From assembly GCF_900095305.1 (NCBI RefSeq), contig NZ_FMDO01000031.1, positions 1 through 64,000 on the forward strand: 64,000 bases of DNA, read 5' to 3'. The DNA comes from Proteiniborus sp. DW1 (lineage in GTDB: Bacteria > Bacillota > Clostridia > Tissierellales > Proteiniboraceae). The notes beneath the pieces were generated by a model, which ran no database searches, was not told where the DNA came from, and saw only the letters and a list, made by a program, of their open reading frames with translations. Numbering within the stretch: position 1 is the first letter of the stretch; each line of letters opens with the position of its first letter. Below are positions 10,498 to 35,788 of this stretch, one piece after another. The translations under genes were made by a program, and so were the position numbers.

Positions 10498-10561
10498 GTT
10501 AATTTACCATATCATATTAATACTAGGCAAAATGAATATACATACTTAGGAGGAAGTAATA

Positions 10562-12917: not shown

Positions 12918-13050
12918 TGGTCTAATTATAAGAAAGTTCATTTCTGTAATTTGAACGAAGTGAAGGATTTGATTTACATAGTAATACCTACTTGAGTGGC
13001 GTAGGATACAAAAACATTATATAAAGATAAGGAATAGAAGGTGAAGAGAT

Positions 13051-13329: not shown

Positions 13330-13391
13330 ATTAGTAGAGTTACCTAGTATCTACCTAAAAAGTAGCTATCTGAAGTTTAGGGAGGAAACGA

Positions 13392-13916: not shown

Positions 13917-13937
13917 TAGAGGAGATGAGTTGTCTTT

Positions 13938-16889: not shown

Positions 16890-16891
16890 TT

Positions 16892-16915
16892 AAAAGGGCC
16901 TGTAGGCTCTTTTTA
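16892..16915 (+). terminator. Weak intra-operon terminator
   Basis: AAAAGGGCC / GGCTCTTTT stem with a TGTA loop, one G-T wobble, and a short T run. It may attenuate transcription into the activator gene, giving less ATPase than reductase. Confidence 0.55.
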
Positions 16916-16982
16916 TATTGAAAAAAGAAAACATAAGGATTATAGTTGTATTTGAACAATTGTTTTCAAAGGAGTGATTAAA

Positions 16983-19075: not shown

Positions 19076-22000
19076 CTACTTAAATAGGGATACAAACTGT
19101 ATAGATATTGGAGAGTTTTCTAATGGAAAATTCTCTGTTCTTAATAGAAGAGCTCCTTCATCAATTGAATAATTTATACTTGGCTGACTTACACCATTAA
19201 CAAAAAGAAGCTGAAAAGATGTTGATTTTGGATTAAGTATTCCTTTATTTCCATACATAATCAATTCATCTGAGTTTGTATAAAGTTTTTTGTTTGCACC
19301 CAAAGTGTTATATTGGTAAGTTTCTGCTCTTAAAAGTTGATTTTCTTTATCCTTTGCTATTATATACTCAAGTGTAATATGCGTTCCTTTTTGAGGTATG
19401 TCTATTGTTGTTAAAGTTAGGAGTCCTTTTTCAATAGTATAATTTGCTTCTGGTTGCAATACGCCATTAATAAAAAGATTATAATATGAGACTTCACTTG
19501 GGTCAGGTATGTCCATATTACCATGTATTTCAATTTTATCATCATTTGAATACTGTTTTTTTATTCCGTCTGAGATAGTATTATACTGGAAGTTTTCTAC
19601 ATTAATAGTCTGACTATCTTTATAATCAAAGGAGCCAGAGATTTCTGCCAAAAGTACATCTACAGTTGAAGAATTTATAGTGCCTATATTCCAAATAATT
19701 TTATTATCTTGTATAGATACTGTACCTTTTGTAACTCCAGTAATATTAACAGAAATTAAGTTATCTAAAAATAAAGTGTCTATAACAGTAACATTACTAA
19801 CTGGACCATATCCGTTATTATTAACTCGAAATTCGATTTTCCAAGTATTATTGACATTAGAATTGACTGCAGTTGGTCCAGATACTATAAATTTTTCAAT
19901 ATTCAAATCTCCAAACATAGCAGGACAATTTTGCATGTTATTTTCTAGCGAAGGAGAAAGAGGGAAATACTTAGCCTTATAAAATTTGTAATCCAAGCTT
20001 TCAATATAATTTTCACTATGTGAAGGCAATAGACATGAACCATAACTAGGGATAAAAAGCTGTACTTTTCCGACTGCTTTAATAATGATAAAAACTCCTG
20101 CTGAAAAGTTCAATTGGTTATTTATAATAGTAGTTTTTTTTAAAAGTTTTGAACTGGTTTCTACTACAATGTCAAAGGAAAATTCATCTCTTGACTCTGG
20201 CATAAATAAAACAATATCATTAGGTATATCTGGTAAGTAGCTTTTAATTAACTTATTTGATTCAAGAATTACTTCAAAAGGAATTCTTAAAAGGAACTGG
20301 ACACGTTTAAAATTTGGTCTGTCTTTTATATCAGATATAATAAGTGTATTTTCTACAATAAAACCTTGCCTAAATGTGATATTTTTAAAAATTTGTGTTC
20401 CAATTTCTATATATAGATTTTCAAAACAACTTCTCTTTTGACATTGAGAGTATACTTTCTCAGTTATAATACAATTACTTTCAAAATCATTGATAACTTT
20501 AATTGGCTCTCCGGATACAATATTTGACAATATACAATTATTCGAATGAAGATCTTTGCTTAAAGCAATAGCTCTGTTCATAGAGCGTAAGCCTGTGGTT
20601 TTGAAAAGGCCAAAGATTTCAAAAAAGGCAGTTTTACTTTCACCAGGAAGAAGCTCGTTAATTGTCCATGTTATAAAATTGTATGAAATAGACACATTTC
20701 CTGAAGATAATGAGATATTATTTATGTTTTCAAACTCATCAAACAGGATATAATCCGTAACAATAAGATTTTGTATAATTCTATTTGTTAAATTTGTGAC
20801 TTTTATTGAAAAACTCCATTTATTATATTTCCCCAAGAAAGCTATAGGAGGTTTATTTATAACAGATTTTTCTAGAAGTAATTGCTTTTTAATAAAATTT
20901 TTTATAGGTAGAACTATTATAGCTATATCCTTTGAGGGACCTGAAAAAATCCTATTAGAAAATATATCACCTGTAACAGAAGCACTGCCTAGGTTTCTTT
21001 CACCAATCATTGTGAAGGCTCCAATTATATCAACAACTAAATAGGCAGACTCAAATCCATCTAATACACCAATTTCCCAATGTATTTCATTATTTACAAA
21101 AGCAGCTGTACCTAGTGATTTGCTTACTATGTTAATTTTGTCAACTCTTTCTATAAATAAGACATCCTTCACAAGTATATTTGATATAATAGAATCACTG
21201 AGATTAGATACTTTTATTTCCACCCTCCACTGGTGAGTTTTACCTGTATTTACTATAGTAGGACCAGAGGTAATAGTTTTTGAAATATCTAAGCTTCTAA
21301 GAACCTGAATTTCTTCACTACATATAATATCAGATTTTACAGCTCCTAATAAGCTATTACCAGTGGCAAAGCTTCGACTAATAAAACGAGTCCCATAGCC
21401 TTTAAAATAACCTTCTATGCTAAAACTTGCATATGCAGACTCTCCTGCCTCAAGAGTACCAATAGTCCAAGTAAAGACATTACTATTTATAGTAATATTT
21501 CCTTGAGAAAAAGAAAAATTTTTTGAGCTTAATATATGATCTAGTAAGATAGTATCGATTAAAATAATATTATCTATTTGAAAACTTTCTGGATTACTTA
21601 TTTTAAGACTAACATTCCATATTCCCTTACTGCCACTTGAAATGGATGTAGGTCCTGAGATAATATTCGTTTCAATTTTTAAGCAACACTGTTGATTCCC
21701 ATTAACCACAATATCTACATCAGTCATAGGTCCAGTTGTAATATTTCCAGATGGTATACGGCCTTTTGCAGTAGCTGAATTTAATTTATTGATACTTTCT
21801 TCCTTGAAAGTAACAAAAATAATCACTATAGGTGAGCCTTTTAAAGGAATATCTTTAGTTTTTAATGTAAGAATTCCTTCAGTTATTTCATAGTTTATTT
21901 TTGGTTGCAATACTCCATTAATAAACAAATCATAATAGGAAACTTCATCAGGGTTAAGTATGCCCTGATTGCCATATTCCGTTAACTCGTCATTGTTAGT

Positions 22001-22207
22001 ATATATCTTCTTTTTTCCATCTGACATGGTATTGTACTGATATATATAAGCTCCTAAAAGTTTTTTATTCTGCTTATAGGAGCTTAATTCCTCTGATAGA
22101 GCCTTTGTCTTTTTTTGCAATTGACTATTTGGCTTCAATATATTTAAGTTTGTAGATGGTTTTGTTTTATTCTTACTCGATAAATGAGAAAGAATTTTAC
22201 GTGCCAT
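19076..22207 (-). CDS. Large DUF4183/DUF11 repeat protein, probable spore-surface protein
   Basis: Protein of 1043 residues with a mosaic plan: a DUF4183 unit (about 55-135); three DUF11-like beta-sandwich repeats (about 180-290, 310-425, 445-560); a Cys-containing middle region (about 575-745, beginning ITEKVYSQCQKRSCFENL); a fourth DUF11 repeat (about 775-870); and two more DUF4183 units (about 885-962, 968-1043). The DUF4183 units share YQYNT, an F(I/V)NGV(L/S)QP block and a closing beta strand. There is no signal peptide, membrane anchor or LPxTG motif, which fits a protein placed on the spore by the mother cell; that is inference. ATG at 22207 has GGAG 8 bases upstream; GTG at 22216 overlaps that site. 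It is divergent from the nonulosonate cluster. Confidence 0.8.
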   Translation of the reverse strand: MARKILSHLSSKNKTKPSTNLNILKPNSQLQKKTKALSEELSSYKQNKKLLGAYIYQYNTMSDGKKKIYTNNDELTEYGNQGILNPDEVSYYDLFINGVLQPKINYEITEGILTLKTKDIPLKGSPIVIIFVTFKEESINKLNSATAKGRIPSGNITTGPMTDVDIVVNGNQQCCLKIETNIISGPTSISSGSKGIWNVSLKISNPESFQIDNIILIDTILLDHILSSKNFSFSQGNITINSNVFTWTIGTLEAGESAYASFSIEGYFKGYGTRFISRSFATGNSLLGAVKSDIICSEEIQVLRSLDISKTITSGPTIVNTGKTHQWRVEIKVSNLSDSIISNILVKDVLFIERVDKINIVSKSLGTAAFVNNEIHWEIGVLDGFESAYLVVDIIGAFTMIGERNLGSASVTGDIFSNRIFSGPSKDIAIIVLPIKNFIKKQLLLEKSVINKPPIAFLGKYNKWSFSIKVTNLTNRIIQNLIVTDYILFDEFENINNISLSSGNVSISYNFITWTINELLPGESKTAFFEIFGLFKTTGLRSMNRAIALSKDLHSNNCILSNIVSGEPIKVINDFESNCIITEKVYSQCQKRSCFENLYIEIGTQIFKNITFRQGFIVENTLIISDIKDRPNFKRVQFLLRIPFEVILESNKLIKSYLPDIPNDIVLFMPESRDEFSFDIVVETSSKLLKKTTIINNQLNFSAGVFIIIKAVGKVQLFIPSYGSCLLPSHSENYIESLDYKFYKAKYFPLSPSLENNMQNCPAMFGDLNIEKFIVSGPTAVNSNVNNTWKIEFRVNNNGYGPVSNVTVIDTLFLDNLISVNITGVTKGTVSIQDNKIIWNIGTINSSTVDVLLAEISGSFDYKDSQTINVENFQYNTISDGIKKQYSNDDKIEIHGNMDIPDPSEVSYYNLFINGVLQPEANYTIEKGLLTLTTIDIPQKGTHITLEYIIAKDKENQLLRAETYQYNTLGANKKLYTNSDELIMYGNKGILNPKSTSFQLLFVNGVSQPSINYSIDEGALLLRTENFPLENSPISIQFVSLFK

Positions 22208-22386
22208 AATTATCACTCCAGAATAGTTAGAGATTATATGATTTTTTTATCATTATATGTATTTGGCATAATTTCTGTTCCGCTATGTAATAGTCATAGA
22301 TAAACAACTCTTATTTTATTGTTCTATTTATAAAAATTCAAAATAAATTGTATAAAGAAAGAAGGATTATGTTTTGGAGGGATATG

Positions 22387-23397
22387 ATGGAGTTACATGG
22401 AAAAAGATTGTTGGTTACAGGAGCTGATGGATTCATTGGGTCACATTTAACAGAGGAACTAGTCAGAAAAGGATATAATGTTCGTGCCTTTGTATACTAT
22501 AATTCATTTAATTCTTGGGGATGGCTTGAAGAATGTCCTAAAAAATTAATAAAGGAAATAGAAATATTTTCAGGTGATATTAGGGATCCTTGGAGAATAA
22601 AAGAGGCAATGAAAGGCTGTGATATTGTATTTCATTTAGCAGCTTTAATCTCTATACCTTACTCATATTACTCGCCTAACACCTATATTGATACAAACAT
22701 AAAAGGAACACTAAATGTTTTACAGGCTGCACGAGAATTGGAAATTGAAAAAGTAGTCCATACATCTACTAGTGAGGTTTATGGGACAGCAAGGTTTGTT
22801 CCAATATCTGAAGAACATCCTTTACAAGGTCAATCTCCCTATGCTGCATCTAAAATTGGTGCAGATCAAATGGCCATTTCTTTTTATAATTCCTTTTCTA
22901 CACCAGTTTCTATCATTCGACCCTTTAATACTTATGGGGCGAGGCAATCAGCTAGAGCAGTAATACCAACTATTATCACACAAGTAGCACAAGGTGAGAG
23001 GAAAATTAAGTTAGGCTCTATAACTCCCACTAGGGATTTTTGTTATGTAAAAGATACTGTTCAAGGCTTTATCGAGATTGCTAAATGTGATAATTCTATT
23101 GGCGAGGTTATTAATATAGGTAGTGGCTTTGAGATTTCTATACAAGATACTGCGAAGACCATTTGTGAGATTATGGGGGTTGATATTGAAATTGGAACTG
23201 AAAGTGAACGGATTAGGCCCGTGAATAGTGAAGTAGAGCGTCTTTGTGCTGATACCTCTAAAGCAAAGAAAATGCTTGGGTGGGCTCCTAAATATAGTGG
23301 GAAGGCTGGATTTGTTAAAGGGCTAAAAGAAACTATAGAGTGGTTTACTAACTCTGACAATCTAGCAGGCTATAAATGGAATAGATATAATTTTTAA
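22387..23397 (+). CDS. legB: NAD-dependent UDP-GlcNAc-type 4,6-dehydratase (LegB-like)
   Basis: Short-chain dehydrogenase of the extended type, 336 residues. TGADGFIGSHL binds NAD, and the active site shows TSTSEVYG and the YAASK Tyr/Lys pair. Best fit is LegB, which starts legionaminic acid synthesis by forming a 4-keto-6-deoxy UDP-sugar. ATG at 22387 follows GGAGG by 6 bases; earlier in-frame starts at 22348 (TTG) and 22369 (ATG) have poorer sites. It is the first gene of the plus-strand glycan cluster. Confidence 0.83.
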   Translation: MELHGKRLLVTGADGFIGSHLTEELVRKGYNVRAFVYYNSFNSWGWLEECPKKLIKEIEIFSGDIRDPWRIKEAMKGCDIVFHLAALISIPYSYYSPNTYIDTNIKGTLNVLQAARELEIEKVVHTSTSEVYGTARFVPISEEHPLQGQSPYAASKIGADQMAISFYNSFSTPVSIIRPFNTYGARQSARAVIPTIITQVAQGERKIKLGSITPTRDFCYVKDTVQGFIEIAKCDNSIGEVINIGSGFEISIQDTAKTICEIMGVDIEIGTESERIRPVNSEVERLCADTSKAKKMLGWAPKYSGKAGFVKGLKETIEWFTNSDNLAGYKWNRYNF

Positions 23398-23438
23398 GGT
23401 ATGTGATAGCTAATTAACAGCATAGATAGGAGGAGTAT

Positions 23439-24596
23439 ATGAAGAGAAAAATCTGTGTGGTTACTGGTTCGCGTGCAGAATATGGGTTGCTGTACACATT
23501 GATGAAAGAAATAGAAAAGGATAATGATTTACAACTTCAGCTAGTTGTTACTGGCATGCATCTGTCTCCAGAGTTTGGCTTAACATATCAAGAGATTGAA
23601 AAAGATGGCTTCACTATTAATTATAAAGTAGAAATGCTTTTATCAACTGATACTTCTATAGGAGTTGCTAAGTCAATTGGTGTAGGAATTATTGGTTTTG
23701 CAGATGCCTTTGAGCAGCTAAAGCCAGATGTTTTAATATTACTTGGTGATAGATATGAAATTTTTGCAGCTGCACAGGCTGCACTGGTAGCTAAGATTCC
23801 TATTGCACATATAGCTGGAGGAGATATAACAGAAGGTTCCTTTGATGAAGCAATAAGGCATAGCATCACAAAGATGTCTCATCTACACTTTGTCACAAAT
23901 GAAGATTCCAAAAAAATAGTTAAGCAACTAGGAGAAGATCCCTCAAGAATTTTTAATGTAGGAAGTCCTGGAATAGATAGAATTATGAGTCTAAAGCTAC
24001 TTGATCGGAAGAAGTTAGAAAAACTTCTTGATTTTACTTTTTTAGAAAAAAATTTATTAATAACTTTTCATCCTGTTACACTTGATTATCAGCACTCAAC
24101 TCAGCAATTTAAAGAATTGCTAGAAGCACTTCATAGTCTTGGTCCAAATGTTGGACTGATGTTCACTAAACCAAATGCTGACCCAGAAGGACAAGGAATT
24201 ATAAAATTATTAGATAATTTTATAGCCATACATTCAAACGCTGTAGTATATACTTCATTAGGGCAACTGATATATTTCAGTCTTATTGCTGAAGTAGATG
24301 CAGTGGTAGGCAATTCTTCTAGTGGAGTATATGAGGTACCATCTTTTAAAAAGCCTACAGTTAATATTGGAGATAGACAAGAAGGACGAATTTTAGCTTC
24401 TTCAGTAATAAATTGTGCTCCAGAAAAATACGAAATTGAAAAAGCTATTAACCAAGCTTTTATAAAAGATTGCTCTGATGTAGTAAATCCTTATGGCAAT
24501 GGGAAGAGTAGCATTGAAATTCTTAATGTAATTAAATCAATTAATAACTATAATAGTCTACTAAAAAAACACTTTCATAAAGTAGGTGAAATATGA
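23439..24596 (+). CDS. legG: UDP-N-acetylglucosamine 2-epimerase, hydrolysing (LegG/NeuC-like)
   Basis: Protein of 385 residues of the hydrolysing 2-epimerase family, which releases UDP and gives a free 2-epimerised amino sugar (ManNAc or its 4-amino-6-deoxy derivative). Family blocks: VTGSRAEYGLL at the N-terminus, LLGDRYEIFAAAQAAL, HIAGGDITEGSFDEAIRH, and VVGNSSSGVYEVPSF. AGGAGG precedes the ATG. Its stop overlaps the start of the synthase gene by 4 bases, coupling the two steps. Confidence 0.9.
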   Translation: MKRKICVVTGSRAEYGLLYTLMKEIEKDNDLQLQLVVTGMHLSPEFGLTYQEIEKDGFTINYKVEMLLSTDTSIGVAKSIGVGIIGFADAFEQLKPDVLILLGDRYEIFAAAQAALVAKIPIAHIAGGDITEGSFDEAIRHSITKMSHLHFVTNEDSKKIVKQLGEDPSRIFNVGSPGIDRIMSLKLLDRKKLEKLLDFTFLEKNLLITFHPVTLDYQHSTQQFKELLEALHSLGPNVGLMFTKPNADPEGQGIIKLLDNFIAIHSNAVVYTSLGQLIYFSLIAEVDAVVGNSSSGVYEVPSFKKPTVNIGDRQEGRILASSVINCAPEKYEIEKAINQAFIKDCSDVVNPYGNGKSSIEILNVIKSINNYNSLLKKHFHKVGEI

Positions 24597-25672
24597 GTAA
24601 TAGAGTATTTGTAATAGCTGAAATAGGTGTAAACCATAATGGATCATTAGAATTGGCAAAGAAATTAATAGATGTAGCTGCTGAAGCCGGTGCAGATGCA
24701 GTAAAATTTCAAACTTTCATAACAGAGAATATAATGGGTCCTTTTACGCCTAAAGCAAGTTATCAAATAAAAAATACTAATCCTTCAGAAACTCAATATG
24801 AAATGGTAAAAAAATTGGAGCTAGGCAGAGAAATACATTTTATTCTAAAAGAATATTGCATTTCTAGACATATCCAAATCCTATCATCTCCTTTTGATTT
24901 AGAAAGTTTGGATTTTTTGGCTGACAAGCTAAACTTACCTATTATAAAAATTGCATCTGGAGAAATAACTAATGCACCTTTGCTGTTAAAAGCAGCTTCA
25001 TTTAATAAAAAGATTATACTTTCCACGGGAATGTCTACTTTAGGAGATATAGAAGAAGCCCTAGGAGTCCTCGCCTATGGATATATTGAAGGAAAAAAGG
25101 GGACTCCTTCCAAAGAGGCTTTTAAAGAAGCATACTATTCTGAAATAGGTCAAAGACTTTTAGCTACAAAGGTTACATTGCTTCATTGTACTACAGAGTA
25201 TCCTGCACCTATTGAAGAAATCAACCTTAAGGCATTATCCACATTGAAACAATGCTTTGGTCTGACAGTTGGATATTCAGATCATACATTAGGGATAGCA
25301 GTACCTTTGGCAGCAGTGGCGCTAGGTGCTGGTGTTATAGAAAAACATATAACTTTAGATAGAAGTCTACCAGGTCCAGATCACAAAGCTTCTTTAGAAC
25401 CTAAGGAATTAGCTCAGATGATTCAGGGTATACGACAGGTAGAAAAGGCTCTTGGAAATTCGTACAAGAAACCATCTATATCAGAATTAAAAAATCAAAA
25501 AATTACTCGTAAAAGTTTAGTTGCTGCATGTGATATTAATAAAGGAGAAGTTTTTACTGAGAAAAATCTAACTGTTAAGAGGCCAGGGGGAGGACTAACG
25601 CCTATAGAACTTTGGGGGCTGTTAGGCAAGCCTGCAGCTAAGTCCTATATAAAGGATGAGATGATTACATGA
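24593..25672 (+). CDS. legI: N-acetylneuraminate/legionaminate synthase
   Basis: Condenses a 6-carbon amino sugar with PEP to a 9-carbon nonulosonic acid. The 359 residues comprise a NeuB TIM barrel (IAEIGVNHNGSLELAKKLID, AGADAVKFQTF, HCTTEYPAP, GYSDHTLG, EKHITLDRSLPGPDH) and a C-terminal SAF/antifreeze-like domain from about residue 300 (RKSLVAACDINKGEVFTEKN). It is complete, with 4-base overlaps with both neighbouring genes. Confidence 0.93.
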   Translation: MSNRVFVIAEIGVNHNGSLELAKKLIDVAAEAGADAVKFQTFITENIMGPFTPKASYQIKNTNPSETQYEMVKKLELGREIHFILKEYCISRHIQILSSPFDLESLDFLADKLNLPIIKIASGEITNAPLLLKAASFNKKIILSTGMSTLGDIEEALGVLAYGYIEGKKGTPSKEAFKEAYYSEIGQRLLATKVTLLHCTTEYPAPIEEINLKALSTLKQCFGLTVGYSDHTLGIAVPLAAVALGAGVIEKHITLDRSLPGPDHKASLEPKELAQMIQGIRQVEKALGNSYKKPSISELKNQKITRKSLVAACDINKGEVFTEKNLTVKRPGGGLTPIELWGLLGKPAAKSYIKDEMIT

Positions 25673-26292
25673 AAATAGCTATTTTTGGGGCATCAGGCTT
25701 TGCTCGTGAAGTATGTGACATTGCTATTGACTTAGGCTATGAGAAAATTGTGTTCATAGATGAAACTAAAGGTGGAAATATAGATTGCTTTTCAGTAGTT
25801 AGTGAAAAAGATATACATACACTTACTAAATATAATTATAAATTTATAATTGGAATTGGTAGTCCTAAAATACGTCAAGAAGTATGGAAAAGATATCAAT
25901 ATTTAGATTATATTAATTTAATACACCCTAATTCAACTTTTGGTTATAGGCAATTAACGAAGTTACGAGAGAAGGTTGGCAACATTGTTTTTCCAGGGGC
26001 TAGGTTAACTAATAATATTCAAGTAGGCAATTTTGGTATATATTATTTTAATTGTACGGTTACACATGACTGTATTATAGAGGATTTTGTAACTATTTCT
26101 CCAGGTGCTAATATATCAGGAAATGTCAAATTATCTAAGGGGGTTTTTATAGGTACCAATGCATGTATTCTTCAAGGTAAATCAATTTCTGAAAAGCTGG
26201 TTATTGGCAAAGATGTAATAGTTGGTGCAGGTGCTGTTGTCACAAAAAATGTACCCAATCATAAAATAGTAAAAGGGGTTCCAGCCAAGTAA
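25669..26292 (+). CDS. NeuD/PglD-like sugar O/N-acetyltransferase
   Basis: Acyltransferase of 207 residues. An N-terminal dinucleotide-like fold (IFGASGFAREVCDIAIDLGY) is followed from about residue 90 by a left-handed beta-helix of hexapeptide repeats (VTISPGANISGNVKLSKGVF, IGKDVIVGAGAVVTKNV). The expected acetyl-CoA-dependent step is acetylation of the 4-amino group (LegH role) or of the finished nonulosonate (NeuD role). The sequence cannot decide between them. The protein ends right at VKGVPAK, slightly short for the family. It overlaps legI by 4 bases. Confidence 0.82.
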   Translation: MKIAIFGASGFAREVCDIAIDLGYEKIVFIDETKGGNIDCFSVVSEKDIHTLTKYNYKFIIGIGSPKIRQEVWKRYQYLDYINLIHPNSTFGYRQLTKLREKVGNIVFPGARLTNNIQVGNFGIYYFNCTVTHDCIIEDFVTISPGANISGNVKLSKGVFIGTNACILQGKSISEKLVIGKDVIVGAGAVVTKNVPNHKIVKGVPAK

Positions 26293-26329
26293 TTTGAACG
26301 GATTTTGATTATGAAGGGATAGATGCATC

Positions 26330-27379
26330 ATGGAGGAGTGGAAAAAAGTATTAGTATCACCTCAATTTAAAGTTCATGAGACTATTAAGATTATAGATTT
26401 ACATTCTTTACAAATTGCACTTGTAGTAAGTCAAGATAATAAATTATTAGGTACAGTTACAGACGGAGATATTCGTCGTGGATTATTAAATGGTATATCA
26501 TTAGACGATACAATTGAAAAAATAATGAATAGAAATCCTATTACTATAAGAGAAAATAAGAATAAAAAGAACATATTAGAAATATTTAAAATCAATAAAA
26601 TTAGACATCTTCCTATAGTAGATGATGCTGGTCACGTTATAGGAATTCATAGAATAGATGATTTACTTCATACTTCTAAAAAGGAAAATTGGATTATATT
26701 AATGGCTGGTGGCTTAGGGAGCCGACTAAGGCCATTAACTGATAATTGTCCTAAGCCAATGCTATTAATTGGAGAAAAGCCACTTTTAGAAATTACATTA
26801 AATCAATTAAGAGAACAGGGATTTTATAGATTTTGCTTTTCTATTAATTACAAAGGGAAAAAAATAAAGGACTATTTTGGAGATGGTTCTAAGTGGGGAG
26901 TTGAGATTTACTATATACATGAGGAAATACCATTGGGAACAGCTGGCTCATTGAGTTTGTTTCAGGTTGAGACAGATAGTCCAATTATTGTAATTAATGC
27001 AGATATTTTAACTAAAGTCAACTTTGAGCAACTTGTCAACTTTCACATAGAGCGGCAGGCTGAAGCCACTATTGCTGTTCGTAGTTTTGATTTCCAAGTA
27101 CCCTATGGTGTAGTTAAAATAAATCAAGATACACTTATAGGGTTTGAAGAAAAGCCTGTATTTACAAATTTTATTAATGCAGGAATATATGTACTAAACC
27201 CATCAGTTTTATGTAAGATACCGAGAAACTCTTATTATGATATGAATCAGCTATTTGAAATTATGTTGTCTAATAATGAAAAAATTTCAGTTTTTCCAGT
27301 GAGAGAGTATTGGATGGATATTGGGAGGATTGAAGATTTTAATCAAGCTAAATTTGATTTTAATGAGGTATTTAGATGA
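26330..27379 (+). CDS. ptmE: CBS-domain sugar nucleotidyltransferase (PtmE-like)
   Basis: Protein of 349 residues. A pair of CBS domains (about residues 1-118; LLGTVTDGDIRRGLLNG, IRHLPIVDD) is fused to a nucleotidyltransferase domain (MAGGLGSRLRPLTDNCPKPM, INADILTKVNF, FINAGIYVLNP). This architecture is that of PtmE, which makes GDP-glucosamine for the GDP-linked legionaminate route. The CBS pair suggests allosteric control by a nucleotide. It overlaps the next gene by 4 bases. Confidence 0.85.
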   Translation: MEEWKKVLVSPQFKVHETIKIIDLHSLQIALVVSQDNKLLGTVTDGDIRRGLLNGISLDDTIEKIMNRNPITIRENKNKKNILEIFKINKIRHLPIVDDAGHVIGIHRIDDLLHTSKKENWIILMAGGLGSRLRPLTDNCPKPMLLIGEKPLLEITLNQLREQGFYRFCFSINYKGKKIKDYFGDGSKWGVEIYYIHEEIPLGTAGSLSLFQVETDSPIIVINADILTKVNFEQLVNFHIERQAEATIAVRSFDFQVPYGVVKINQDTLIGFEEKPVFTNFINAGIYVLNPSVLCKIPRNSYYDMNQLFEIMLSNNEKISVFPVREYWMDIGRIEDFNQAKFDFNEVFR

Positions 27380-28287: not shown

Positions 28288-28991
28288 AAAGATTATGCAC
28301 AATTTGTGCACGTTCTGGTTCAAAAGGAGTGTCTAATAAAAATATTAGAGAAGTTGGGGGCAAACCTCTATTAGCATATAGTATTTTACAAGCGAAGGAG
28401 TCCAACTTGTTCCAAGCTATAGCAGTAAGTAGTGATAGTACAGAAATACTTGATATAGCAAATAGATGGGGAGCAGATTTTTTGATAACTAGACCAACAA
28501 GCCTTGCTACGGACCGAGCTCCTAAGATTCCTGTAGTTAGACATGCTTTGCTACATATGGAAGAACTAAATGAGGAAACTTTTGACACAATAGTGGACCT
28601 AGATGTAACTTCTCCACTTAGGTATATATCTGATATAAAAAATGTTGTAGATTTATTAGAAAAAAATCTAGTATCTAACGTAATTACTGGTACACCTGCT
28701 AGACGCTCCCCTTATTTCAATATTGTTGAAATAGACCATAGAGGTAAAGTACAATTATCAAAATCATTATCAAGACCAATTTTTTGCAGACAGGATGCAC
28801 CTAAATGTTATGATTTGAATGCTTCTATCTATGCATGGAGAAGGGATGCTCTGTTAAAGCAAAACACAATCTATAATGAAGATACGATTCTATATATTAT
28901 GCCAGAAGAGAGATCCATAGATATTGATTCAGAATTAGATTTCGAGATTGTCAATCTATTAATAAGTAAAAGGAGTATAAAAAATGACTAG
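28272..28991 (+). CDS. legF: CMP-nonulosonate cytidylyltransferase (LegF/PtmB-like)
   Basis: Activates the nonulosonic acid with CTP to give the CMP-sugar donor. The 239 residues contain the signature ICARSGSKGVSNKNIREVGG, VSSDSTEIL, the DLDVTSPLR block that binds the sugar and Mg, and ATDRAPKIP-type contacts. The GTG start at 28272 follows AAGGAG by 5 bases; ATG at 28284 is a weaker alternative. It overlaps genes on both sides. Confidence 0.9.
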   Translation: MDKEMKRLCTICARSGSKGVSNKNIREVGGKPLLAYSILQAKESNLFQAIAVSSDSTEILDIANRWGADFLITRPTSLATDRAPKIPVVRHALLHMEELNEETFDTIVDLDVTSPLRYISDIKNVVDLLEKNLVSNVITGTPARRSPYFNIVEIDHRGKVQLSKSLSRPIFCRQDAPKCYDLNASIYAWRRDALLKQNTIYNEDTILYIMPEERSIDIDSELDFEIVNLLISKRSIKND

Positions 28992-29811
28992 TATATCATA
29001 TAGAGAATTATTTGACTTAAAGAATAAGACAGCAGTAGTAACAGGGGGGGTGGGGATACTTGGAAAAAAATTTTGCGATGGCCTATCTGAATTTGGGGCT
29101 AATGTAGTAGTAGTAGATCTAGATAAAGAGAAAGTAGATAATTTTGCAAAGGAACTAATGAATAAATATAAAAATAAATGCTTAGGAATAGCTTGTGATG
29201 TTTCTTCTCCAAGGGATGTTAAAGCAATGACTCATCAAGTAATTGAGGAGTTTGGAGAAATTAATATTTTGCATAACAATGCTGCCAGTAAATCAGACGA
29301 CTTAGAAGCCTTCTTTGCTCCTTTTGAAGAATATTCATTAGAAAAATGGAATAAAATCATGTCTGTTAATCTAGGCGGAATGTTTTTAGTAGCCCAAGCC
29401 ATTGGTTCTCATATGGCTAGTCAGGGAAAGGGAGGAAGTATAATTCAAACATCATCAATTTATGGGATGCTAGCACCTGATCATAGAATTTACGAAGGCT
29501 CTTATTATTTAAACAGAAAAATTAATACTCCTGCTGTATATTCTGCTTCAAAGGCTGCAGTAATTGGACTTAGTAAATATTTGGCAACCTATTGGGCAGA
29601 CAGGAACATTCGTGTGAACACATTAATATTAGGTGGAAATGAAAGTGGACAGAACGAAACTTTTAAGAATAATTACTCATTTAGAACACCATTAGGTAGA
29701 ATGGGAAAACCAGATGAAATGGTAGCTGCGTTAGTTTTCCTAGCGTCTGAAGCTTCTAGCTATATAACTGGACAGAGTATTATTATAGATGGTGGTTTAA
29801 GCGCTTGGTAA
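28984..29811 (+). CDS. ptmA: SDR-family oxidoreductase (PtmA-like)
   Basis: Short-chain dehydrogenase of 275 residues. The cofactor loop TGGVGILG is at residues 20-27, NNAAS follows at about 98-102, and the catalytic YSASK is at 186-190. The C-terminal SSYITGQSIIIDGGLSAW is typical of classical SDRs. PtmA homologues accompany legionaminic acid genes in Campylobacter and clostridia. It overlaps the cytidylyltransferase gene by 8 bases. Confidence 0.85.
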   Translation: MTSISYRELFDLKNKTAVVTGGVGILGKKFCDGLSEFGANVVVVDLDKEKVDNFAKELMNKYKNKCLGIACDVSSPRDVKAMTHQVIEEFGEINILHNNAASKSDDLEAFFAPFEEYSLEKWNKIMSVNLGGMFLVAQAIGSHMASQGKGGSIIQTSSIYGMLAPDHRIYEGSYYLNRKINTPAVYSASKAAVIGLSKYLATYWADRNIRVNTLILGGNESGQNETFKNNYSFRTPLGRMGKPDEMVAALVFLASEASSYITGQSIIIDGGLSAW

Positions 29812-29827
29812 CTACAGGGGGGAATGA

Positions 29828-30157
29828 ATGAGAATAATAGAAGATATTTGTCAAGATAATAAGTCTTATTATAATGAGTATAAAAGTAAAGTCCAAAGTG
29901 TACTTTACTATGCGTGTAATATAGCTGAAGTAAAAAAGCTATTAAAGGAGATTAGAAAAGAAGCCATAAGTATGAAGGAATTTTTTATCACGATAGAGGA
30001 ATTGAATCAAATTAAACATGCAATTGACATGTTTAATGCTAGAATGCAGGCTACAGTATACTATACATTTAAAAATATAGAATCATATCAGTATTATGGT
30101 TGGAAAGAAGTATTATTCCAGAGGGAAAATGAAGGTGAAAAGATTGACTCCGTTTAA
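29828..30157 (+). CDS. Small helical protein of unknown function in the glycan cluster
   Basis: Unrecognised protein of 109 residues, predicted mostly helical, rich in Lys, Glu and Tyr, with no signal peptide or membrane segment. It starts 16 bases after ptmA behind a GGGGGG site and overlaps the next small gene by 29 bases, so it is part of the glycan operon. Position just before a Maf-type glycosyltransferase suggests an accessory role such as a chaperone or adaptor; that is inference. Confidence 0.7.
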   Translation: MRIIEDICQDNKSYYNEYKSKVQSVLYYACNIAEVKKLLKEIRKEAISMKEFFITIEELNQIKHAIDMFNARMQATVYYTFKNIESYQYYGWKEVLFQRENEGEKIDSV

Positions 30158-30461
30158 AAAGAAAATTGAGAGACTTCAAAATTCTTTAATATATACCATT
30201 GAGAACTTTAGGAAGGCTGATGACAATACTGGCTTAAATTTTTTTTTAATTAGTATAGAGGATTTAGAAAACTTATTAGAAAGTCATCAAAAAATTGACA
30301 ACCTGAATATGATAATCCATCAAGTACTGCCAAAATTACACATACTTTATAATTCAATGAAAAGCTGTGATGTAGCAGAAATGATAGATATATTAGAATA
30401 TGGAATTTTGCCAGCAACAGAAGAATGGATTAGGGAGTGTGATAGTAGTGATTATAGCTAA
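30129..30461 (+). CDS. Second small helical protein in the glycan cluster
   Basis: Unrecognised protein of 110 residues, predicted helical, with an acidic C-terminus (EEWIRECDSSDYS). ATG at 30129 is preferred because GAGGG lies just upstream inside the preceding gene. It overlaps the Maf gene by about 14 bases. The paired small proteins and their overlaps suggest they are made with the glycosyltransferase in fixed ratio. Confidence 0.68.
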   Translation: MKVKRLTPFKKKIERLQNSLIYTIENFRKADDNTGLNFFLISIEDLENLLESHQKIDNLNMIIHQVLPKLHILYNSMKSCDVAEMIDILEYGILPATEEWIRECDSSDYS

Positions 30462-32370
30462 AGAAAATGAGAGGAAAGAAATTTTCAAGAAAAACTTACA
30501 GCTCTTAACTCCTTGGTTGAGAGAAATAGTCTTACAAATAGATGAGGAGGAATTATGGAAGAGGATTGAAATAAACTATAATGATGAAGGGCATCCAATT
30601 TGTATATATCATGAAGAGAATAAAAGCTTTAAGATAAATAGCGAAAGACCGTTAATAGAAGCAGAAACCTGGTGTAAAGCTATTAATATGAAAGGAAGTG
30701 GAGCTGTTTTTCTGTATGGCTCTGGGTTTGGATACTCTTTATTTGAGGTCTTTTCCAAGAAACAACCCCATACTATAGTAGTTCTTTTTGAACAAAACAT
30801 TTATATATTTGCAGCAATGCTTTATTATTTTGATCTAGAACCTATCATCAATACGCAGAAAATAGCTTTCCTCATTGGGGACATCCACCAATTCTCTAAA
30901 GTTCTTAATATTTTATTTTCAAGCATTATTTTTGCTAACTGTACATCACCTACCATAGCATTTTCTTTAGTGGCGCAAAGAAATTTTAAAGAAAAATACA
31001 TTGAGATTCATAAGCATGTGTTCTCACAGCTGGGGCTATTTGTATTTTATATAGGAAATGATCATTTAGATAATTTAATTGGGCTTCACAATTTGCTATA
31101 TAATATGAAAGAGATAATACTGAATCCTTACATTAGTGATTTGAAAGATAAATTTAAGGATGTCCCTGCATTTATTGTGGCTAATGGACCATCACTAGAT
31201 AAAAATATACACCAGTTAAAAAAGGTCCAAAACAAAGGACTGATTATTTCTACAGAATCAGCAATAATCCCATTAATAAAAAACCGTATTAAACCTGATA
31301 TTTTAACTATTATTGAGCGAACAAAATATACTTATACCTATCATTTTGAAAACATAAAATATCCAGAAGATATATCTTTAATTTGTCTGGGAATTGTAGA
31401 TAAGAATGTGTTTCCATCTTTTAATGGTGCTAAAATTCCAGTATTTCGCAGTCAAGAAGCTATTAATCAATGGATAAACAGATATGTTGGAGATGGAAGT
31501 GCTATTAATGCAGGGGCAAATGTTTCTCATCTTGCATTAGAAATAGCCATATATTTGGGGGCTAATCCAATTGTCTTTGTAGGGCAAGATTATGCATATG
31601 GATCAGATGGTAAAACTCACAGTAAGGACGCAGTTTACTCACATGAAAAGGGAAAAAGAGCAAGAGAAATATTAAAATCTAAACCAATTGTGTGCGTAGA
31701 AGGCAATGAAGGAGGAATGATTCCTTCTAACCAATTATGGGTGGATTTTAAACGTGGATTAGAGATGAAAATTGCTTCTTATCCTGAAAAAGTATTTATT
31801 AATGCAACAGAAGGAGGAGCAAAAATAAAGGGAAGTATATATAGTAAATTAGATCAAGTTATAGAGAAATACTGTGTTCAAAAAGTGCCATATGGAGTAC
31901 ATGAATTAATAAAAGATGGTAAAGACAAAATCTCAATATTGGAGAGAAAAGAAGGCTTTAAAAAGTTTATCAAAAGTGTAGAAGAATATTCTAGTATTTT
32001 TCGTAAATTAAGCAGAGAAGCAGTTAGCAGACAAATGAAATGTAAAGATATGCTTCGTTTATCCCAAGAAAAAGATATTGATAATAACTATGGTGTCTTA
32101 GAAAAAACTTTCAAGGAACATATAGATAGCTACCAGCTTTTTATAGAGGATGACTTGGTCAGGTGTTTTTGTCAGCAAGTTATCTTTGTATATTTTTATC
32201 TATTAAATAGCATAGGAGTTATTGATAGTCCAGATAAGATAGCAAAAGTTTTTGAAATTCAGCATAGTTTCTTCTATCATTTAAATGTTGTTTGTCAAAG
32301 CTTATCGGTTTACTTGGAAGATGCTATTGAGGTCCTAGAAAGCCTTCTTGTAGACTTAGAGAGCATATAA
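30448..32370 (+). CDS. Maf/DUF115-type nonulosonate glycosyltransferase
   Basis: Protein of about 640 residues of the motility-associated-factor family. The DUF115 core shows DVPAFIVANGPSLDKNIHQL, the ISTESAIIPLI stretch, and AGANVSHLALEIAIYLGANP with VFVGQDYAYG. A helical C-terminal region follows. Maf proteins move CMP-pseudaminic or CMP-legionaminic acid onto Ser/Thr of flagellins; here no flagellin is nearby. The GTG start at 30448 is chosen from the AGGGAG site 10 bases upstream; GTG at 30439 is possible. It overlaps the TPR gene by 1 base. Confidence 0.85.
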   Translation: MIIAKENERKEIFKKNLQLLTPWLREIVLQIDEEELWKRIEINYNDEGHPICIYHEENKSFKINSERPLIEAETWCKAINMKGSGAVFLYGSGFGYSLFEVFSKKQPHTIVVLFEQNIYIFAAMLYYFDLEPIINTQKIAFLIGDIHQFSKVLNILFSSIIFANCTSPTIAFSLVAQRNFKEKYIEIHKHVFSQLGLFVFYIGNDHLDNLIGLHNLLYNMKEIILNPYISDLKDKFKDVPAFIVANGPSLDKNIHQLKKVQNKGLIISTESAIIPLIKNRIKPDILTIIERTKYTYTYHFENIKYPEDISLICLGIVDKNVFPSFNGAKIPVFRSQEAINQWINRYVGDGSAINAGANVSHLALEIAIYLGANPIVFVGQDYAYGSDGKTHSKDAVYSHEKGKRAREILKSKPIVCVEGNEGGMIPSNQLWVDFKRGLEMKIASYPEKVFINATEGGAKIKGSIYSKLDQVIEKYCVQKVPYGVHELIKDGKDKISILERKEGFKKFIKSVEEYSSIFRKLSREAVSRQMKCKDMLRLSQEKDIDNNYGVLEKTFKEHIDSYQLFIEDDLVRCFCQQVIFVYFYLLNSIGVIDSPDKIAKVFEIQHSFFYHLNVVCQSLSVYLEDAIEVLESLLVDLESI

Positions 32371-32756
32371 TGAGGAGTGAGGTTTTGAATATCATTGAAG
32401 ATTTAGATAGAAAACTAGACCAGTTAACTAAAAATCCTACTAATTCCTGTATATTAAATGATATAGGAGTACTTCTTTATCGAGTAAATGATTGGGAAAA
32501 TGCTGAAAAGTACTTTCATAGAGCATATGAGCTGGACTCAAAGAATGGAGATATTCTATTTAATTATGCACTAATACTATACAAACAGGATAAGTTTAGA
32601 GAAGCTATTTTTATATACGAAGCTTATCTAAAGTTTTACGAATACGACAAGGAAGTCATACAAAAATTGGGAGATTGCTACTTTATGATAGGAGAATATG
32701 GTTTGGCATCTAAAATGTATAAACTGCTTCAAAGAGATAGAGAGGGGAATCATTAA
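32370..32756 (+). CDS. Tetratricopeptide repeat protein
   Basis: Cytoplasmic protein of 128 residues with about two to three TPR units (DWENAEKYFHRAYELDSKNG, DILFNYALILYKQDKFREAI, LGDCYFMIGEYGLASKMY). Its ATG overlaps the last base of the Maf stop. It probably acts as a protein-binding scaffold for the glycosyltransferases on either side; that is inferred from position. Confidence 0.78.
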   Translation: MRSEVLNIIEDLDRKLDQLTKNPTNSCILNDIGVLLYRVNDWENAEKYFHRAYELDSKNGDILFNYALILYKQDKFREAIFIYEAYLKFYEYDKEVIQKLGDCYFMIGEYGLASKMYKLLQRDREGNH

Positions 32757-32759
32757 TTT

Positions 32760-35348
32760 ATGTCCAGGAAAAAAAACTTAAGTTTCTGTGTCATAACATA
32801 TAATGATGAACAGGATATTGAAAAAAGTTTGTTAAGTATCAAAGATTTTGTAGATGAAATAATAGTAGTAGATATTGGATCAGAAGATTTAACTATTTGT
32901 AAAGCAGAGCAAATAGGCGCTAAAGTATATCAGTTTAAATGGAACTATGATTTCAGCGAGGTAAAGAATTTTTGCTTAGATAAAGCTAAAGGAAGATGGG
33001 TTTTATTTCTTCAAGCTAACGAGCTTATTCTTAAAGAAGAGTTTGAAAATATCCATTTACTTTTAGATAATCCAAATATAGAAGGGTATCTATTGGATAT
33101 AGACTATAATTTTGAAAAGCATCGAATTCATTCTCCAGTTCAATCTCTGCGCTTGTTTAGGAATCGCAAGGAATATCGCTTTAAGCATAGAGTATTTGAA
33201 AGAATTCCAGATGAAATATTAAGGAATGTAAGAGAGTCAGGTATTCATATTCTTCAACAATCTAATCATAACTTGGCAAGTAAGTTTGACATTTTTATAA
33301 AATTATTAGAAGAGGATACTAATAACCACTTTGAAGATAGCTATCTACAATATATATATGGAATAGAGTTATTAAATCAAAAAAGATATAGAGAAAGCAT
33401 AGTATGCTTAGAAATATCAAGAAAAAACTTAAATTATGATTATTTATTTGCTCCACATTTGTTTAAGTGCTTAAGCTGGGCATTGATTACTATAAATGAA
33501 TATCATAAGGCACTAGATGTTTTGGAGGAGGGGATAAAAGCATTTCCCTTATATACTGATTTGTTTGTCCTAAGAGGAGAGATACGTAAACAACTTAAAC
33601 AGTATGATGAGGCTATTAAAGATTTAGAAATAAGTATTAAAACGATGAAGCAATCGCATCTTATGGTGCCTAAGCCAGAGGTTGATATTTCGGTTATCTT
33701 TGAAGAGCTCGGCGATATACATGGTAGCTTATTTAACTATCAACGTGCTAGTGTCTATTACCAGCAGGCTTATAAAATAAACCATAAAAATAGAGAACTA
33801 TTATATAAAATTGGTAAGTTGGCTAAAAGGATCAGTTCTATTGATTTATTAGATAATATATTAAAGGCAGCAATTGAGGAAAGGGATATTGAAAAATTAG
33901 TGACAATTATGGATATTTTTTTTCAAAAAAGAGAATATAAAAGAGTTTTAGAACTTGTAGAGTACTTAGAAAATTTAATAGGAAAAGGAGAAGAAAGTGA
34001 AAGCATTAAATTTACTTGTCACTTAATGCTAGGAGACTTAGGAAAAGCAATGTTTTATTTCACTGCTATTAATAGAGACAGCTCTTTTTACAATCATGCT
34101 CTACTGAAGCTTGTAGAAAAGTATTGGTCTAATAGCCAATGGCAAGAGGCTAAACAGTTAATATTAGAAATGACTAAAATAGAAAATATACGCATGGAAA
34201 CAAAAAGATTATATATAACATTACACCAGCTGCTAGCTCAAGGTGAATCAGATTATATTTTAACAACCGCACAGGAATATGAAATTGTTAACTCTCTAAT
34301 GGAAAGCTTTTTATGGCTAAGACAACAAGATAAGGCTCAGTTATTACTACCGCTAATTTTAAAGGAAAGAGAAGAGGAGCAGTATATCAATATAGCAGAA
34401 GTATGGGCAGAGATAAATGATTATAAAACTTTAGAAAACATCTTTTATTTTATATCTAATAAACAAAAGCAGAAGGAATTTAAGCAAAAAATTATAGTAA
34501 GTCTATTGAATAATGGATACATAGAAACAGCTGAGAAAATAATTAATTTAGGAAATTTTCAGTCATTGGAAGGGCTAGAACATTTAGTATGGGCTAAGAA
34601 TTTCATTAACAAGATTGTCCAATGGATAAATAGCATTATCAAAATGAATACTAACTATTATGATTTAAATATTTTCGAAGCTCAAGTATCTTCTAAACCA
34701 AGTAAGGATTTAATAGAACTTTATTATAGCTTAGGCCTAGATGATAATAACCCAGATAAAGATACTTATGTTTCTAAAGCTGAAAATCTTACAATCGTAA
34801 AAATCTATGAAGACATAGGGGACTTTTTTTTAAGAACAAGTAAATATAAAGAAGCTTTAACAGCATATCTAAACATAATAATAAATGACCCCTTAAATCA
34901 AGAAGCCATAGAAAAATTAGTAGATATTTTAAAAATAAATTTCAACGAGTATTTGAATTTTATTGAAAAAAAATATTCATTTATAGAGGCTTTTTACTTT
35001 GAGCGAAGACAAGATTTTTTAAACTATACAGTGGGATGCATATATTTTAAGAATAACAAAATTGAAGAAGCTCTAAAATATTTTTTAAAAATAGGAGAAG
35101 ATATGCCTATTTATATGATTGCTCTTGCCTACATTATAAGTAGCTTCATGATTTTAGGAGAAGAAGAAAAAGCAGTAGTATATTTAAGTGAAAAAAATAG
35201 AATGCCATATATATTCAAATTAATACTTCAAATTTGTAAAAATCACGCTCTAAATATACTCAATAAAGAGTGTAATGAATCTCTATACAATGAGTTATTT
35301 GAGCAGGGAAGGCAGAAAATTCTAGACAAAGCTATTCTGCTGTTTTGA
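32760..35348 (+). CDS. GT2-family glycosyltransferase fused to TPR repeats
   Basis: Protein of 862 residues. An N-terminal GT2 domain (about 1-200) has FCVITYNDEQDIEKSLLSI, FVDEIIVVDIGSED and WNYDFSEVKNFCLDKAKGRW. A long helical region with TPR units follows (for example KYKEALTAYLNIIINDPLNQ). The place of the metal-binding DXD (usually LDADE) reads LQANE, so both acidic residues are missing. It may be inactive, metal-independent, or a scaffold. It is the last gene of the cluster, 3 bases after the TPR gene. Confidence 0.82.
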   Translation: MSRKKNLSFCVITYNDEQDIEKSLLSIKDFVDEIIVVDIGSEDLTICKAEQIGAKVYQFKWNYDFSEVKNFCLDKAKGRWVLFLQANELILKEEFENIHLLLDNPNIEGYLLDIDYNFEKHRIHSPVQSLRLFRNRKEYRFKHRVFERIPDEILRNVRESGIHILQQSNHNLASKFDIFIKLLEEDTNNHFEDSYLQYIYGIELLNQKRYRESIVCLEISRKNLNYDYLFAPHLFKCLSWALITINEYHKALDVLEEGIKAFPLYTDLFVLRGEIRKQLKQYDEAIKDLEISIKTMKQSHLMVPKPEVDISVIFEELGDIHGSLFNYQRASVYYQQAYKINHKNRELLYKIGKLAKRISSIDLLDNILKAAIEERDIEKLVTIMDIFFQKREYKRVLELVEYLENLIGKGEESESIKFTCHLMLGDLGKAMFYFTAINRDSSFYNHALLKLVEKYWSNSQWQEAKQLILEMTKIENIRMETKRLYITLHQLLAQGESDYILTTAQEYEIVNSLMESFLWLRQQDKAQLLLPLILKEREEEQYINIAEVWAEINDYKTLENIFYFISNKQKQKEFKQKIIVSLLNNGYIETAEKIINLGNFQSLEGLEHLVWAKNFINKIVQWINSIIKMNTNYYDLNIFEAQVSSKPSKDLIELYYSLGLDDNNPDKDTYVSKAENLTIVKIYEDIGDFFLRTSKYKEALTAYLNIIINDPLNQEAIEKLVDILKINFNEYLNFIEKKYSFIEAFYFERRQDFLNYTVGCIYFKNNKIEEALKYFLKIGEDMPIYMIALAYIISSFMILGEEEKAVVYLSEKNRMPYIFKLILQICKNHALNILNKECNESLYNELFEQGRQKILDKAILLF

Positions 35349-35368
35349 TCTAATAAGTTTAACTTTAA

Positions 35369-35394
35369 AAGGATGTGCAAGTATGCACATCCTT
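35369..35394. terminator. Hairpin between convergent genes, possible bidirectional terminator
   Basis: Perfect 10-bp stem AAGGATGTGC / GCACATCCTT with loop AAGTAT. The minus strand has a short TTTT after the stem; the plus strand lacks a good T run. It separates the glycan operon from the minus-strand DUF4183 gene. Confidence 0.6.
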
Positions 35395-35404
35395 GAATAT
35401 TATT

Positions 35405-35788
35405 CTAGGTTGTTACTGTTGTAGTAGAAGTTGAGGATGGGGCGAAGTTATTTACTACTAAAGTGATGGGTGCACTTATTGGAACTGTAGACGCTTGAGT
35501 AAGGATTTCGACTTGAGAACCATTTGTACTAACTGTAAACAAACTTGATTGTTGTAGTGCACCATTAACAAAAAGCAAATAATATCCATTATCAGGATCA
35601 GTAGTTACTAAGTTTCCCGTCATTGTATTTCCAGCATCGTCTGTAAATTGAACAGCAGGAATAACTATAGTACTTCCTACGACTTCATTATTTCTAAGCT
35701 TATAAAAGTATTTTTCAACTTCTGGATTTGTATCAGTTATTGTAGTAGTAACAGCATTCATTACAAGTTTAAATAAGGTTGTAGCCAT
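35405..35788 (-). CDS. DUF4183 domain protein, probable spore-surface protein
   Basis: Protein of 127 residues, essentially one DUF4183 unit: VEKYFYKLRN, then NGYYLLFVNGALQQSSLFTV, then the closing strand ISAPITLVVNNF. It ends in a Ser/Thr-rich tail (APSSTSTTTVTT). It has no signal peptide or anchor. AAAGGAGGG lies 6 bases before the ATG on the minus strand. The homology with the units of the 1043-residue protein at the other end of the glycan cluster is visible by eye. The tail would be a suitable O-glycan acceptor, which is inference. Confidence 0.8.
   Translation of the reverse strand: MATTLFKLVMNAVTTTITDTNPEVEKYFYKLRNNEVVGSTIVIPAVQFTDDAGNTMTGNLVTTDPDNGYYLLFVNGALQQSSLFTVSTNGSQVEILTQASTVPISAPITLVVNNFAPSSTSTTTVTT

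Follow-up and report, generated by a model that had tools for sequence, protein, structure and literature searches.

A Maf-containing nonulosonate island between F-ENA-type genes of Proteiniborus sp. DW1: a candidate glycosylation system for endospore filaments

RESULTS

Gene content of the island

We analyzed a 64,000-nucleotide (nt) stretch of Proteiniborus sp. DW1 (the window; positions 1 to 64,000 of NZ_FMDO01000031.1; contig C31 of a 3.12-Mb genome in 62 contigs), in which genes for nonulosonic acid biosynthesis and a Maf glycosyltransferase form an island between two genes encoding DUF4183 proteins. All 15 genes reported in a first-pass annotation of this sequence were found in place: 13 plus-strand genes (22348..35348), adjacent ones overlapping or at most 41 nt apart, flanked by two minus-strand DUF4183 genes.

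The plus-strand run begins with genes for LegB, an NAD-dependent 4,6-dehydratase (22348..23397; TIGR04180, 530 bits, cut-off 475), a LegG/NeuC-type hydrolysing 2-epimerase (23439..24596; TIGR03568, 474 bits, cut-off 236), a LegI/NeuB-type nonulosonate synthase (24593..25672; TIGR03569, 478 bits, cut-off 400), and a NeuD/PglD-type acetyltransferase with a presumed LegH role (25669..26292; TIGR03570, 167 bits, cut-off 161), all four above the cut-offs of their curated models. The names of the next four proteins rest on Pfam domains and gene order: a PtmE-like protein with CBS and nucleotidyltransferase domains (26330..27379; PF00571, PF00483), a PtmF-like Gfo/Idh/MocA oxidoreductase (27376..28287; PF01408, PF22725), a LegF-like synthetase of the cytidine monophosphate (CMP)-activated nonulosonate (28272..28991; PF02348; TIGR03584, 130 bits, below the cut-off of 206), and a PtmA-like SDR oxidoreductase (28984..29811; PF13561). 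The PtmE-like nucleotidyltransferase is at most suggestive of guanosine diphosphate-linked precursors, as in the Campylobacter-type pathway. Translation of LegB probably starts at ATG 22384 or 22387, behind GGAGGG, and not at TTG 22348.

Two small proteins precede Maf: sm109, a small helical candidate partner of Maf (29828..30157, plus strand), and sm121, a second candidate partner (30096..30461, plus strand). Neither had a match in a Pfam search. The predicted structure of sm109 is of low confidence (predicted template modelling score [pTM] 0.35), and the AlphaFold2 model of sm121 is a four-helix bundle (predicted local distance difference test score 76, pTM 0.68). A FliS-like flagellin chaperone was considered as an identity for sm121; FliS reached Z ~12, but designed bundles reached higher Z values, and we make no such claim. 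The Maf gene follows (30400..32370, plus strand; PF01973, 139.5 bits, cut-off 34.6). Its start probably lies slightly downstream of 30400, because close relatives align only from query residue 10 to 17 on. The run ends with genes for a TPR protein (32370..32756; Pfam TPR) and a GT2 glycosyltransferase with a TPR region (32760..35348; PF00535 and TPR), both on the plus strand.

Related islands occur in five other genomes (see below), and in four of the five a LegC aminotransferase gene lies between LegB and LegG. None lies there in the window, nor in locus L055, and the island could be inactive or incomplete here for want of LegC. A LegC-family aminotransferase is encoded in trans at C6:27917-29062 (456 bits, cut-off 420), the open reading frames of the window island are intact, and the core motifs of Maf are kept; we regard inactivity as highly improbable.

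The flanking DUF4183 proteins resemble an F-ENA fibre subunit and its anchor

F-ENA spore filaments consist of DUF4183 trimers, and DUF4183 proteins serve as subunits and as anchors, according to the sections of PMC11952670 cited here. The same sections describe a fibre gene adjoining the F-Anchor-3 gene in Clostridium aceticum, and an F-Anchor-3 plan of one DUF4183 domain, four DUF11 domains, a CsxA-like domain, and two more DUF4183 domains (PMC11952670).

The smaller flanking protein of the island (127 amino acids [aa]; 35405..35788, minus strand; PF13799, 49.6 bits, cut-off 25.1) was compared with the PDB by means of a profile of its family, which matched 9n0b ("spore filament protein subunit") at E 9.5e-48 and 9i65 at E 2.6e-9; the window protein itself is 62% identical to 9n0b over 117 residues. 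We infer from its title that 9n0b is F-ENA-4. By this homology to a solved fibre subunit, the 127-aa protein is classified as an F-ENA-type fibre subunit. The larger flanking protein (19076..22216, minus strand) has 1046 aa from a GTG or 1043 aa from an in-frame ATG. Pfam detected DUF4183 in three stretches (199 bits) and DUF11 with 53.5 bits, a score for the whole protein that does not resolve the repeat number. The order of an N-terminal DUF4183 domain, DUF11, and two C-terminal DUF4183 domains is that of F-Anchor-3. The middle domain is conserved and contains Cys, and a PDB sequence search gave a DUF4183 chain alone and no CsxA-like match. No signal peptide was seen by eye on either protein. 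The spore-surface location proposed in the first-pass annotation is thus supported and made specific, DUF4183 proteins being the subunits and anchors of F-ENA appendages in the cited sections of PMC11952670.

Cryo-electron microscopy of F-ENA-4 from a member of the Anaerovoracaceae showed extra density on five Ser and three Thr residues per subunit, which the authors read as likely O-glycans; no glycosylation enzyme is named for the clostridial F-ENA fibre in the cited sections (PMC11952670). The mean Ser+Thr fraction was 0.27 in island fibre subunits (5 rows) versus 0.21 in others (30 rows, two genomes being counted twice; p 0.002), an enrichment to which we give little weight because related rows are not independent.

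Two further observations concern these families. In Clostridiaceae bacterium M8S5, two different F-ENA subunits are encoded in tandem beside the island (L030:4609-4971 and 5156-5536), possibly for different glycoforms or fibre segments. In G369, a second long and very divergent DUF4183-anchor-like protein (L079:2-3058) is encoded ~6 kb from the fibre/anchor pair.

The island recurs in other genomes

We searched related genomes for DUF4183 genes and their surroundings. DUF4183 was present in 6 of the 60 genomes of a first set of relatives, the source genome included. In three (G002, G016, and G023), fibre and anchor genes stood side by side with no island between; in G013 the contig ended near the anchor, and the best Maf was 28% identical. 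In M8S5 (G031), the same operon lay between the anchor and two fibre genes. A scan with an alignment of the anchor gave 30 loci, some on short contigs, and 4 of them have the operon 5' of the anchor gene, pointing the other way: M8S5, Anaerobacillus alkalilacustris (Bacilli), and a Clostridium and a Ruminiclostridium metagenome-assembled genome (MAG; Clostridia). In A. alkalilacustris, one gene separates LegB from the anchor. It encodes a 400-aa protein with no Pfam match (L095:692-1894), possibly an extra filament or tip protein and a second acceptor. In a survey of the class (391 genomes), DUF4183 was above the cut-off in 13 genomes, with the island in 2, the window genome and G329; in the remainder, fibre and anchor genes were side by side (9 genomes) or had a contig break between them (2 genomes). 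Most F-ENA loci being free of the island, the fibre does not need it. Tissierella praeacuta, placed in the class Tissierellia at NCBI, belongs to the order of the window.

A single contig holds both ends of the island in the window, M8S5, and G329. The G442 island is divided between two contigs, and in G441 (Anaerobacillus) and G443 (Ruminiclostridium MAG) the anchor side alone is visible. LegC is missing in the window and in G442, and PtmE, PtmF, and LegF are missing in M8S5. In G329 and G442 no TPR protein was seen and the GT2 protein is shorter; Pfam detects no TPR in the GT2 protein of G329. BLAST matches to sm109 were found in all five other islands and in G828, a genome with a different appendage locus (see below), and matches to sm121 in four of the five and in G828; in G329 a 92-aa open reading frame holds the place of sm121. 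A search of a plasmid collection with the window Maf and the G828 Maf gave three matching records each, at 23% to 30% identity, and no plasmid-borne island was seen. Since the arrangement recurs in unrelated genomes, it is more than chance.

The island Maf belongs to a clade set apart from flagellin-linked Mafs

We next surveyed Mafs with the window Maf as query in the class (391 genomes, 44 matched), the order (249 genomes, 43 matched), the family of G329 (14 genomes, 10 matched), and the order of Anaerobacillus (397 genomes, 75 matched). The large surveys scored the best three to four candidate places per genome, and two genomes recurred across surveys (G442 as G626, G031 as G444). In the resulting tables, six Mafs were 55% to 100% identical to the window Maf, three were 40% to 42% identical, and the rest were at or below 34%.

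The six island-type Mafs come from Bacilli, Clostridia, and the order of the window. For linkage we counted 70 Maf rows, leaving out five weak or fragmentary ones (second pieces in G113 and G139; G238, G111, and G443:C247) and the flagellin row G261:C5, which was below the cut-off; the flagellin search did not cover G111 and G238. All six island-type Mafs had a DUF4183 gene within ~11 kb on the same contig, so that the neighborhood survey proposed in the first-pass annotation came out positive, and none of the six had a flagellin gene within 20 kb on its contig. The nearest flagellin gene was more than 1.4 Mb away in M8S5 and G329, and the other four island contigs carry none. Among the other Mafs, flagellin lay within 20 kb in 47 of 64; of the 17 unlinked, 14 had no flagellin on the contig, G294 had one at 57 kb, and G398 and G273 had one at more than 2 Mb. 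Ordinary Mafs are often, though not always, linked to flagellin.

The reported absence of flagellin holds for the window but not for the genome, which has two flagellin genes and a second Maf on contig C7. This Maf is 24% identical to the window Maf and adjoins one of the flagellin genes, together with PseB and PseC; the flagellin therefore has its own Maf and pseudaminic-type genes. A third Maf hit in the genome (on C38) was rejected as a Maf from its sequence; we take it to be a thiamine-pyrophosphokinase-like gene.

These data bear on the alternative that the nonulosonate decorates flagellin and that the place of the island between F-ENA genes is accidental or due to a hitch-hiking insertion. 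Maf and Leg genes are classically flagellar, the genome is flagellate, and loci combining Leg genes, Maf, and flagellin (L131, L134, L135, and L142) are found in relatives. Against this stand the second Maf beside flagellin and PseB/PseC in the same genome, the contrast between 0 of 6 for flagellin within 20 kb and 6 of 6 for DUF4183 on the contig, and the recurrence of the island position in Bacilli and Clostridia. We consider a flagellin target very unlikely.

The three Mafs at 40% to 42% were selected on identity, and their gene neighborhoods were inspected only afterwards. In G828, the Maf lies among Pfam Enas genes (67.9, 60.1, and 23.3 bits, cut-off 22, and weaker ones), and one of their products matches PDB 7a02, a DUF3992 protein, at E 2.9e-8; we take 7a02 to be Ena1B. 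Homologues of both small proteins come after this Maf. The sugar genes of G828 are assigned to the Pse type because they are distant from Leg genes and because of the names we presume for their neighbors; the LegI-type synthase groups with synthases from flagellar loci of the order to which G828 belongs. G655 and G699, which hardly differ at this locus, have an Ena-like gene ~11 kb from Maf, across a sugar-gene cluster; in G655 it scores 19.6 bits, below the Enas cut-off of 22, and a PDB search with its product gave no match up to E 1. The association of Maf with Enas is thus firm in G828 alone and only suggestive in the G655/G699 pair. No further case of this type (S-type appendages) was found in 7 genomes of the family of G828. 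The BLAST search with Enas references covered L120-L122, L124, L125, and L128-L142, not the rows fetched as 3.5-kb pieces. A fusion of the sm109-like partner with a methyltransferase domain in G828 (L121:182-1048) suggests a methylated sugar or acceptor in the S-type locus.

In a tree of 44 Maf rows, the six Mafs of F-ENA islands grouped together (100/100), as did all nine appendage Mafs versus the 35 others (100/100; the tree is unrooted). All nine members of the appendage clade are switched at 5 of the 45 columns that the other Mafs conserve (window Maf residues 262, 374, 376, 398, and 443); all or most of the nine retain the remaining 40. The core motifs GPSL, GQD, and TEGGA of the MptE-like/Maf core domain are present, and with the PseD model NF050051 the window Maf scored 193.9 bits, below the cut-off of 670.

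A third tight Maf lineage, 24% identical to the window Maf, was seen in L100 (9308-11179), L101 (9350-11212), and L141 (8987-10837), either at a great distance from any flagellin gene or on a contig that carries none. Its neighbors in L100 and L101 are presumably ftsZ, spoIIGA, sigma-E, and nrdR genes. This lineage may be another non-flagellar Maf.

The fibre subunit is the likelier acceptor

The first-pass annotation had named both flanking DUF4183 proteins as acceptors and the whole island as one transferable unit. We compared trees of the two proteins. In the anchor tree (one of two L053 anchor pieces left out), the six island anchors are scattered (5 changes; starred branches alone require 2 or more), whereas in the fibre tree the five island subunits cluster with 2 changes, and none of 500 shuffles gave so few. 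The data neither demand nor reject a single clade of all five (approximately unbiased test, p-AU 0.42). G329 and G442 have an anchor of the short type, yet their fibre subunit groups with the Tissierellales type in a set of 11 rows (96/93); forcing it to join the short-anchor subunits was rejected (p-AU 0.008; the groups were named after the tree was seen). In the simplest reading of these trees, the fibre subunit appears to travel with the glycosylation operon in one family, while the anchor is native. This favors the subunit as acceptor. The earlier claims are thus partly supported: the small fibre subunit is the likelier acceptor and the anchor a possible one, and the transferable unit appears to comprise the island and its fibre subunit without the anchor.

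Another spore-surface component, such as the F-Anchor, exosporium or crust proteins, or a spore polysaccharide, could be the main target instead of the F-ENA fibre. Spores of Bacillus subtilis carry legionaminic acid, for which the cited part of PMC7439481 states both transferase and acceptor to be unidentified. The anchor gene is divergent from LegB in all six islands (directly in five, one gene off in Anaerobacillus), and a GT2 protein is also present. On the other side, it is the fibre subunit of G329 and G442, not the anchor, that groups with the island lineage, and the putative O-glycan densities are on the fibre subunit itself (PMC11952670, in the sections cited). We judge a different main target to be unlikely, though clearly less so than flagellin.

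Intergenic features and neighboring genes

A terminator-like hairpin, GGATGTGC-loop-GCACATCC, lies shortly 3' of the F-ENA stop codon (35369..35394). Hairpins of its type (GGATGTG...CACATCC) are found behind the fibre gene in most island-free loci as well as in the window, ~21 of 35 F-ENA rows in all, and several others have a GGGTGGG type; the other three islands with a visible fibre gene are without the GGATGTG type. In the window, the operon lies between this hairpin and the anchor. The F-ENA hairpin is possibly a leaky terminator that sets the ratio of fibre to anchor.

The divergent intergenic region (22217..22383) would hold the anchor promoter on the minus strand and the promoter of the LegB operon on the plus strand. 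A TTCTATT-N13/14-AATAAA box picked by eye precedes LegB in five of six islands (22322-22350 in the window, with N13; also in L095, L055, L057, and L072). We take it to resemble a sigma-E-type promoter. A sigma-K-like pattern was found upstream of 5 of 33 fibre genes (0.4 expected) and 9 of 33 anchor genes (0.6 expected), the control being first-order resampling, which does not control for relatedness. This set was compiled without regions below 100 nt, fibre open reading frames above 150 aa, anchors below 400 aa, and identical sequences. Sigma-70-type promoters occurred at the expected frequency (94 found, 89.5 expected).

Elsewhere in the window, genes for a double-cubane-cluster anaerobic reductase and a BadF-type ATPase, its likely activator, adjoin at 15744-17747, behind a shikimate-pathway cluster at 9427-14381.

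DISCUSSION

We propose that the island encodes a dedicated system for nonulosonate O-glycosylation of F-ENA endospore filaments, acting in the mother cell with a legionaminic-type sugar and an acceptor-switched Maf, and we assign this reading a probability of about 0.77 from comparative sequence evidence. In the sporulating mother cell, LegB, LegG, LegI, NeuD, the PtmE/F/A-type proteins, and LegF, with the LegC-type enzyme supplied in trans, would produce a CMP-activated legionaminic-type sugar, as their families suggest. Maf with the two small helical proteins would then transfer the sugar to Ser/Thr residues of new F-ENA subunits in the mother-cell cytoplasm. The GT2 protein may extend or diversify the glycan, which is the weakest step. 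Polymerization of the decorated subunits would finally take place on the F-Anchor, at the surface of the spore, and would require no secretion, since the mother cell lyses.

Several observations weigh against this proposal. Because the six islands share ancestry, they do not count as six separate confirmations. With island contigs as short as 16 and 22 kb in two of the six cases, missing flagellin says little there, and in G441 and G443 the fibre side is out of view since the contigs end. The island of the window is without LegC and that of M8S5 without LegF, PtmE, and PtmF. In the class survey, 11 of the 13 genomes with DUF4183 have no island, and none of the 11 yielded an island-type Maf. 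The group of the island subunits in the fibre tree also includes two island-free ones, L039 and L053. Finally, no exact sigma-K match was found in any of the six LegB upstream regions, or in the fibre and anchor upstream regions of the window.

A broader proposal is that a sporulation-specific Maf clade has switched from flagellin to appendages, with a legionaminic-type sugar for F-ENA and a pseudaminic-type sugar for S-type Enas, and that the F-ENA operon with its cognate subunit is a mobile cassette placed beside a resident anchor. For this we see the odds as even.

The locus offers an enzyme, partner proteins, a sugar pathway, and an acceptor that can be tested together, and its sequences give a means of predicting which spore filaments are sugar-coated. 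It suggests, moreover, that a family of glycosyltransferases that took its name from motility acts on a second self-assembling filament as well. Spore charge, hydrophilicity, adhesion, and clustering should change with the sugar.

Maf is well known as a nonulosonate transferase of flagellin, as stated in the cited parts of PMC13317340, PMC9298399, and PMC11339370. A search of open-licence literature gave no report linking Maf to spore appendages among the matches listed (titles and starts of abstracts). The enzyme family, the sugar pathway, and, recently, the filament are known; their combination with a putatively switched acceptor would be new.

The closest known system is that of F-ENA with F-Anchor-3, in C. 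aceticum and as F-ENA-4 of the Anaerovoracaceae, which shares the DUF4183 subunit and the anchor plan of DUF4183, DUF11, and two DUF4183 domains; F-ENA-4 has putative O-glycans and no enzyme named in the cited sections, whereas the window has a Maf/nonulosonate operon between the two genes (PMC11952670). Flagellar Maf islands, such as those of Campylobacter (Leg/Ptm) and Clostridium (PMC13317340, as far as cited), likewise contain Leg genes, Maf, and GT2-TPR proteins. They differ from the window island, which is without flagellin linkage, has a putative acceptor in an endospore filament, and encodes a Maf of a separate clade with its own invariant core residues. The sps system of the B. subtilis spore crust resembles the proposed system in providing legionaminic acid for the spore surface from the mother cell; it uses the dehydratase SpsM of the uridine diphosphate route and has no identified transferase or acceptor in the cited part of PMC7439481, while the window has LegB-type genes, a Maf, and a linked acceptor candidate. 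S-type appendages (Pfam Enas, DUF3992) share with the window a Maf of the appendage clade, found with Pse-type genes among Enas genes in G828, but their subunit family is Enas and not DUF4183, and the sugar genes are of the pseudaminic and not the legionaminic type. BclA of the Bacillus exosporium, as described in the cited sections of PMC11952670, is likewise an O-glycosylated filament protein of the spore surface, but it carries other sugars on a collagen-like acceptor.

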